Shown here in pieces: positions 3,635 to 30,233 of a stretch of 44,806 nt of DNA. The translations under genes and the position numbers were made by a program. The stretch comes from a virus: positions 1 through 44,806 of IMG/VR virus record IMGVR_UViG_3300027792_000005; one strand, written 5' to 3'. Within the stretch, counting starts at the first letter, position 1, and each line of letters starts with the position of its first letter. The notes beneath the pieces are model-generated. The model was not told the DNA's origin. It saw only the letters and a list, made by a program, of their open reading frames with translations, and did not search any database.

Positions 3635-4065
3635 GTATTTTTGGAACAGGAAGTTTTATGTTTACAGGTACAGGTTCGCCGGATTCAACAGCAAGAACGC
3701 TTAATCATAGCCGTTTATCGCCTGAATTTCAGCAACCTGATTTAATAGAGTTAACAAACCCTTTGACTGGGGAAAAATATTATAATTTGCGTGGCAACTA
3801 TGCAACTTTTATAGTTGAGGAATTAGTTTTCAAGGAAACAACACCGGCAACATTTGCAACAATGATTTTTTCATATATTGGCAAAGATGTTACTAATGTA
3901 AAGCCTTACGGAAGCGTTATAATGGACGTAACAGGCGGTACGCCGGCAGTTTTTACGGTTGTATCTGCCAAACCTTACCCATTTGCAGAGTTGGACGATC
4001 GGCAAAAGATTGTAATTGAGTTCCGGTCTAAAAAATATATAGATTTGGCGGCATCTTTAGCATGA
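3631..4065 (+). CDS. Small tail-tip protein, paralogue A
   Basis: 144 residues, coupled to both neighbours by 4-base overlaps. Residues around NPLTGEKYYNLRGNYATFIV match NPLNGEMSF..IQYYDTFVV in the next gene, so the two look like tandem paralogues of a small beta-rich tail-tip component. No enzymatic motif is visible. The function is inferred from position between the putative hub and the fibre gene. Confidence 0.6.
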   Translation: MSIFGTGSFMFTGTGSPDSTARTLNHSRLSPEFQQPDLIELTNPLTGEKYYNLRGNYATFIVEELVFKETTPATFATMIFSYIGKDVTNVKPYGSVIMDVTGGTPAVFTVVSAKPYPFAELDDRQKIVIEFRSKKYIDLAASLA

Positions 4066-29795: not shown

Positions 29796-30002
29796 TTACC
29801 CTATTAATAAATTAATTATTTTTATAATTTTTTCAGAATCTTCTTTTGTAAATGTATTTTTAATAATTAACTCGGTAGTATCAACATCTTTAATTAACAT
29901 AAAAGCAAATAATTTTTCAATCATAGTGGTAGGACTGCAATTCGTGAACTCTTTCGTAAAAACTTCTTTGCCAAATTCGTTTGTTTTTGTTAAGTTTTCC
30001 AT
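29796..30002 (-). CDS. First early gene, 68 residues, unknown function
   Basis: The ATG at 30002 follows GAGGATAAA. A longer frame from 30038 is open, but its ATG lies inside the CUGAUGA core of the hammerhead-like element and has no ribosome site. Sequence is helical with an FAFMLIKDVDTTELII hydrophobic core. As the first product of the leftward operon it could act very early against the host; no motif shows how. Confidence 0.55.
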   Translation of the reverse strand: MENLTKTNEFGKEVFTKEFTNCSPTTMIEKLFAFMLIKDVDTTELIIKNTFTKEDSEKIIKIINLLIG

Positions 30003-30019
30003 TTTATCCTCATTATTAT

Positions 30020-30065
30020 AGTTTTCGCTTCTGCTCATCAGTTACGGACTTTCACCGTAATAACT
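30020..30065 (-). ncRNA. Candidate type III hammerhead ribozyme in the early leader
   Basis: Minus strand, 46 nt. Stem III AGUU (30065-30062) with AACU (30023-30020); H17 = A (30061), cleavage predicted after it. Stem I UUACGG (30060-30055) with CCGUAA (30047-30042), 7-nt loop. Core CUGAUGA (30041-30035). Stem II GC (30034-30033) with GC (30028-30027), loop AGAA, including the conserved G10.1-C11.1 pair. Core GAAA (30026-30023). Every conserved core base is present; the cleavage triplet is UUA, allowed by the NUH rule. Stem II has only two pairs and stem III four. It sits between the promoter (30133-30163) and the first early gene, so cleavage would trim the 5' leader. Confidence 0.72.
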
Positions 30066-30132
30066 CCGTGACTTTTTTCAAAGCTGCAAACGTCAATCAA
30101 TATGGAAAAAACAATTAATTTTAATCTCTGTG

Positions 30133-30163
30133 TAAATATACAATGTAAATTATACATTGTCAA
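30133..30163 (-). promoter_or_regulatory. Leftward early promoter with overlapping dyad operator
   Basis: Minus strand TTG (30163-30161), 20 bases, TATATTTA (30140-30133). The spacer carries a perfect inverted repeat, ACAATGTA (30140-30147) with TACATTGT (30153-30160), which could bind a dimeric regulator between -35 and -10. Transcription should start near 30126, giving a leader of about 120 nt that includes the ribozyme candidate. Confidence 0.7.
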
Positions 30164-30233
30164 TAGAAAAGTGTAAAAAAGATTAATTATTTTTCAAAAA
30201 GTTTGATTTTAGCATAAAATAGCAAAAAATAAT

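Follow-up and report, generated by a model that had tools for sequence, protein, structure and literature searches.

Hundreds of bacterial hammerhead ribozymes, many of them associated with prophages and commonly with a stem II of two base pairs, were described by Perreault et al. in 2011 (PMC3088659). Prophage examples cleave both in vitro and inside E. coli; those around ardA, and others in Clostridium scindens, Azorhizobium and Agrobacterium, lie between phage genes, sometimes with several on one transcript (PMC3088659). In the haloviruses HF1 and HF2, 13 nt separate a hammerhead from the start codon of the early-operon gene that follows it, and mapping placed the 5' end of the transcript no more than 3 nt from the cleavage site (PMC3088659). 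Neither a stem II of two pairs nor a place in an early operon is, then, new for phage hammerheads (Perreault 2011, PMC3088659), a class recognized since about 2011.

The sequence analysed here, referred to as the window, is a virus record of 44.8 kb (44,806 nt) that carries genes of a tailed phage. A replication initiation protein, a DnaB-like helicase, an SSB and methyltransferases are encoded in its leftward early operon, and its rightward late genes begin with the terminase. Read on the minus strand, positions 30065 to 30020 almost certainly form a complete type III hammerhead, a predicted self-cleaving ribozyme. The 5' strand of stem III, AGUU (30062..30065, with U16.1 included), is followed by the cleavage-site residue A17 (30061), which completes the triplet UUA, then by the stem I hairpin UUACGG-UGAAAGU-CCGUAA (30042..30060), the catalytic core CUGAUGA (30035..30041), a 2-bp stem II, GC/GC, with the loop AGAA (30027..30034), the core GAAA (30023..30026, with A15.1 at 30023), and the 3' strand of stem III, AACU (30020..30023). 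Stems I, II and III have 6, 2 and 4 pairs, every one of them Watson-Crick, in the helix order of type III: stem I is closed by the 7-nt loop UGAAAGU, and stem III, whose four pairs include U16.1-A15.1 (U30062 with A30023), is open. The core positions C3-U4-G5-A6-N7-G8-A9, G12-A13-A14 and A15.1-U16.1 are all present, and UUA is an allowed, suboptimal form of the NUH cleavage triplet. The initial annotation had claimed a complete motif, with all core bases and three paired stems, and a cleavage bond at 30061/30060; the sequence is exactly as it described, and the predicted cut is correctly positioned.

Rfam family RF00008 (Hammerhead_3) has the same topology, the same core CUGAUGA/GAAA, an NUH cleavage site and a short stem III, while the window is set apart by its 2-bp stem II and a loop I of the form UNNNAGU. 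The sTRSV hammerhead, also used for an energy comparison with the window, is likewise of type III, with a 4-bp stem III and a 6-bp stem I bearing a 7-nt loop; unlike the window it has a 4-bp stem II, and it serves the rolling-circle replication of a satellite RNA. The HHphage ribozymes of HF1 and HF2 share with the window their position ahead of the first gene of a polycistronic transcript from the early region, but they are core variants from archaeal viruses, whereas the window carries the consensus core in a bacterial phage (PMC3088659). The prophage hammerheads around ardA and in the three bacteria named above are of mixed types I, II and III and have other neighbouring genes; their likeness to the window is drawn from placement (PMC3088659). 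A remark in the initial annotation that hammerheads are known in some phages is borne out by the published prophage and HF1/HF2 examples, and because of the hammerheads of Perreault 2011 the window is best regarded as a further case of a known kind, with support from that work for the role proposed below (PMC3088659).

The sequence CTGATGA occurs twice in the window, once on each strand. Under a dinucleotide model, the expected number of such cores flanked by stems of at least 4/2/3 pairs, in type I or type III order, is 0.0025 for each strand of a window if G-U pairing is accepted and 0.0002 if every pair must be Watson-Crick, the actual site having 6/2/4; these figures uphold the earlier statement that the motif is very unlikely by chance. 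Chance expectation alone would not settle the identity of the site, given the number of windows that such a scan covers. Rfam lists nothing above threshold at the site, where RF00008 reaches 12.0 bits against a gathering cut-off of 48.5. A scan of 17 loci with relatives of the site likewise gave no Rfam match at the gathering threshold, and the relative L132 scored 16.4 bits with RF00008, for which the cut-off is 48.5. Because the curated Rfam models miss this group of ribozymes, automated annotation overlooks it.

Viral contigs were scanned with the pattern CTGATGAGC-N3..6-GCGAAA, followed by a stem test, which returned 19 hammerhead-like sites, among them the window's own copy and L002, a contig that came from a terminase search; six cores with permuted letters returned none. 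A 7-nt loop I ending in AGU was common to many of these sites. A second scan of viral contigs used a fixed geometry, AGTC-N5-CTGATGAG-N6-CGAAA, and found 36 contigs, of which 35 yield complete type III hammerheads, stem I having 6 bp and stem II 2 bp, the columns AGTC, CTGATGAG and CGAAA being invariant by construction and excluded from the evidence. The same architecture was present in each of the three genome contigs hit by a narrower pattern, which come from a Butyrivibrio, a goat-colon bacterium and a Prevotellaceae MAG. When the spacing of stem II in the pattern was altered, 29 new contigs were hit; seven contain a type III hammerhead, all with a different loop I, one more contains a type I hammerhead, and the remaining 21 show what chance matches look like at that specificity.

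On this basis we define a compact group of phage type III hammerheads, represented by model R1, with a 6-bp stem I, loop I of the form UNNNAGU, a 2-bp stem II of G-C and C-G, a 4-nt loop II that is mostly A-N2-A, and a short open stem III, an architecture that the window shares. The cleavage triplet is mostly GUC, with UUC, CUC and GUU also occurring, and is a common rather than a defining feature. In L142 and L150, stem I and loop I are identical to those of the window, while stem III reads CCGU/ACGG, compensated on both sides. The window also matches the family in features that no search pattern specified: the first U of loop I, the first and last A of loop II, the length of stem I, and the distance to the Shine-Dalgarno (SD) sequence. 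The second pair of stem II was left unspecified in the second-scan pattern, yet it is C-G in 28 of 28 relatives. The concern first raised over the shortness of stems II and III is therefore partly answered, a 2-bp stem II being the rule in the family; the 4-bp, A/U-rich stem III of the window remains weak.

Covariation was assessed in 28 distinct members, from which model R1 was built with the window left out. Across these members every cell of stem I is paired (100%), and five of its six pairs show changes on both sides; the covariation score is 0.582, as compared with 0.117 in shuffles and at most 0.104 with the pairing partners slid. Stems I and III both covary strongly. Applied to the window, model R1 scores the site at 56.2 bits (E = 8.4e-17), with the next best place in the window at 7.7 bits, and this makes the window the lowest-scoring clear member, other sites of the same architecture having scores of 59.7-75.4 bits. 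A covariance-model check, as suggested in the initial annotation, thus gives a negative answer with the Rfam models (12 bits against 48.5) and a positive one with the family-specific model. As judged by comparison of sequences, the relatives settle the identity of the site as a hammerhead, and a covarying family with exactly the same architecture supports the reading of a hammerhead ribozyme in a 5' leader.

Two readings in which the site is no ribozyme at all are bounded by these results. A chance resemblance within an ordinary structured leader would fit with the lack of anything above threshold in Rfam and with a minimum-energy fold of the leader that is a different one, but the dinucleotide-model expectation is far below 1, a model derived from relatives detects the site at 8e-17, and the site agrees with the family at positions left free by every search pattern; we consider such a coincidence very improbable. 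Alternatively, the dyad TTACGG-N7-CCGTAA might act in the DNA as a repressor site, or the leader might hold some other non-ribozyme element, for example a riboswitch-like hairpin. The TTACGG dyad is indeed perfect, and another perfect dyad of operator character lies over the promoter at 30140-30160. However, the window has no second TTACGG dyad within two mismatches, the relatives vary the stem sequence freely while keeping its pairing, as an operator would not, and the FMN riboswitch model reaches just 9.2 bits against a cut-off of 66.2, so that an operator or riboswitch-like element is also highly unlikely.

The hammerhead lies within a divergent intergenic stretch of 292 bases, with two overlapping sigma-70-like promoters upstream, TTGACA-17-TATATT (30135..30163, minus strand) and TTTACA-17-TATAAT (30177..30149, minus strand), each with 11 of 12 consensus bases, and an SD sequence, GAGG (30008..30011, minus strand), and an ATG downstream. 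The first gene of the leftward early operon (29796..30002, minus strand) encodes a protein of 68 amino acids with no recognised family; the SD sequence and the layout seen in the family favour ATG 30002, 17 nt from the ribozyme, as its start over another in-frame ATG, 30038, which falls within the ribozyme core. The location claimed originally, with a promoter on one side and the first early gene on the other, is accordingly correct: the promoter at 30163..30135 lies upstream, and the SD sequence and ATG 17 nt downstream. A short upstream open reading frame, GTG AAA GTC CGT AAC TGA, overlapping ATG 30038, is possible on paper, but the ribozyme family accounts for the same bases better. Separately, a perfect inverted repeat, ACAATGTA-N5-TACATTGT, covers the early promoter at 30140-30160, between the -35 and -10 elements of the promoter at 30163..30135; it is present as a single copy within three mismatches in the window and has an operator-like look.

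Placement is a consistent property of the family. A start codon preceded by an SD sequence occurs no more than 45 nt downstream in 29 of 34 members, the frequency at positions drawn at random on the same strand being 11.8% (binomial p ~2e-22, although relatedness among the contigs makes the true p larger). In the usual arrangement, 5-40 nt lie between the end of the upstream gene and the ribozyme, and 10-37 nt between the ribozyme and the start of the next gene. The 17 nt to ATG 30002 in the window fit this layout, but the window's hammerhead follows a promoter, not a gene. The suggestion in the initial annotation that a position at the head of an early operon is unusual does not hold, since most relatives also directly precede a gene and a hammerhead in the leader of an early operon had already been reported in 2011 (PMC3088659). 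L142 and L150, among the closest in sequence to the window, are found directly behind a gene, with no SD-preceded start close downstream; a role at the 5' end is therefore not universal in the family, and the placement of these two may point to 3'-end processing as a second use.

The best explanation, to which we assign a probability of about 0.72, is that the site represents a true type III hammerhead of the compact subfamily, one that would cut the phage transcript just upstream of the gene's ribosome-binding site. The early leader would start near 30128 or 30142, and a cut between 30061 and 30060 would release a leader piece of ~65-80 nt that ends in a 2',3'-cyclic phosphate. The mRNA of the early operon would then carry a 5'-OH and open with the stem I hairpin, after which come the SD sequence and ATG 30002. 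Such an end may protect the mRNA from decay that depends on a 5' tri- or monophosphate or on unpaired nucleotides at the 5' end, as is generally the case for RNase E/RppH and RNase J, and cleavage would yield a uniform 5' end whichever promoter is used. Sequence, family, covariation and placement were observed; cleavage in cells and an effect on the stability or translation of the mRNA are what we infer.

Several features distinguish the window's copy from its relatives. Its UUA triplet is unique among the members seen, the residue at the cleavage site being C in almost all relatives and the triplet nearly always GUC. In one pair of designed ribozymes that differ only at the cleavage-site base, GUA cleaved at 0.02 per min, a rate about 12-fold lower than the 0.25 per min of GUC (PMC4191386). 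Stem III is a weak, A/U-rich helix of four pairs, and the minimum-energy fold of the leader in context is a different hairpin, better than the hammerhead fold by 8.3 kcal/mol, the second largest such penalty in the family. Because of the UUA triplet, the weak stem III and the competing fold, cleavage of the window's hammerhead may be slow. These peculiarities, together with the lowest score among the clear members, could also mean that the ribozyme is decaying or already slow: by descent it would truly belong to the family, but it would no longer cleave fast and would by now matter little to the early mRNA. We judge this rather unlikely: decay would not for long keep all of the core bases and all of the pairs intact, as they are here, A is allowed as the H of the NUH triplet, and stem I can fold first during transcription.

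The competing hairpin covers both the SD sequence and the ATG, and the computed cost of opening the SD-ATG region falls from 6.2 kcal/mol in the uncut leader to 1.2 kcal/mol after the cut, a drop matched by just one of 60 shuffled upstream sequences. These values raise the idea of a translational switch, in which the ribosome-binding site stays hidden in the alternative hairpin until cleavage of the leader frees it, and folding of the ribozyme decides early expression. This, too, appears improbable, since it depends on a single sequence for which no covariation is available, and none of 29 other members showed a change in opening cost above 1.6 kcal/mol; unmasking of the ribosome-binding site is accordingly rejected as a general mechanism of the family. 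For this phage in particular, one might conceive of a kinetic switch, in which a hammerhead with a slow triplet and the hairpin are mutually exclusive folds, self-cleavage unmasks the early ribosome-binding site, and folding or the magnesium level times translation of the early operon, but we hold that version to be doubtful. A compact hammerhead acting upstream of the ribosome-binding site remains the preferred reading.

Other observations concern the wider set of viral contigs. L126 and L135 (records G003 and G004) carry two and three hammerheads per phage contig, ~330-600 nt apart and flanking small genes, comparable to the prophage transcripts that carry several. A second compact type III form, with a 4-nt loop I, UAGU, and a 4-bp stem II, occurs just before a start codon in L181, L199, L182, L188 and L196. 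The form of loop I is coupled to the length of stem II, 7-nt UNNNAGU going with 2 bp and 4-nt UAGU with 4 bp, and no Watson-Crick pseudoknot is apparent; this coupling suggests a possible tertiary contact between loop I and loop II. L150 (2250-2335) and L133 (minus strand), two otherwise different records, share an element, GTCCTAGGCAYGAC...AAACTRCCT, directly 5' of the hammerhead, with no Rfam match at the gathering threshold. Type I hammerheads occur in the viral contigs L007, L052 and L032, and the first two of these share a GGAGTCTCCCCC...GAATAACTGGAGACCTA tail after the hammerhead.

Searches of cultured phages by blastn with five family members gave no convincing copy; a match in MT838164 was rejected, its core being broken and its position being inside an apparently coding stretch. 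No close relatives of the phage itself were found by blastn in phages, by its first early protein, or by its helicase. Its distant terminase relatives are L002 and also L074. L002 has a canonical type III hammerhead with a 4-bp stem II (3923-3975, minus strand), separated by 18 nt from the next gene, which encodes 393 aa, is of unknown family and belongs to L002's own leftward operon; terminase is all that the two records have in common, and no synteny with the window is claimed. The hammerhead in L074 lies opposite plus-strand ORFs, and nothing was built on it.

The compact group, which may have been described earlier outside the open-licence literature, is uniform and covarying and, in many gut-type phages, keeps a fixed position upstream of ribosome-binding sites; the window adds to it an example from the start of an early operon. 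Its members make up a clean set of natural copies, one of them in Butyrivibrio, with which the proposal that self-cleavage is a maker of phage mRNA 5' ends could be put to a direct test.
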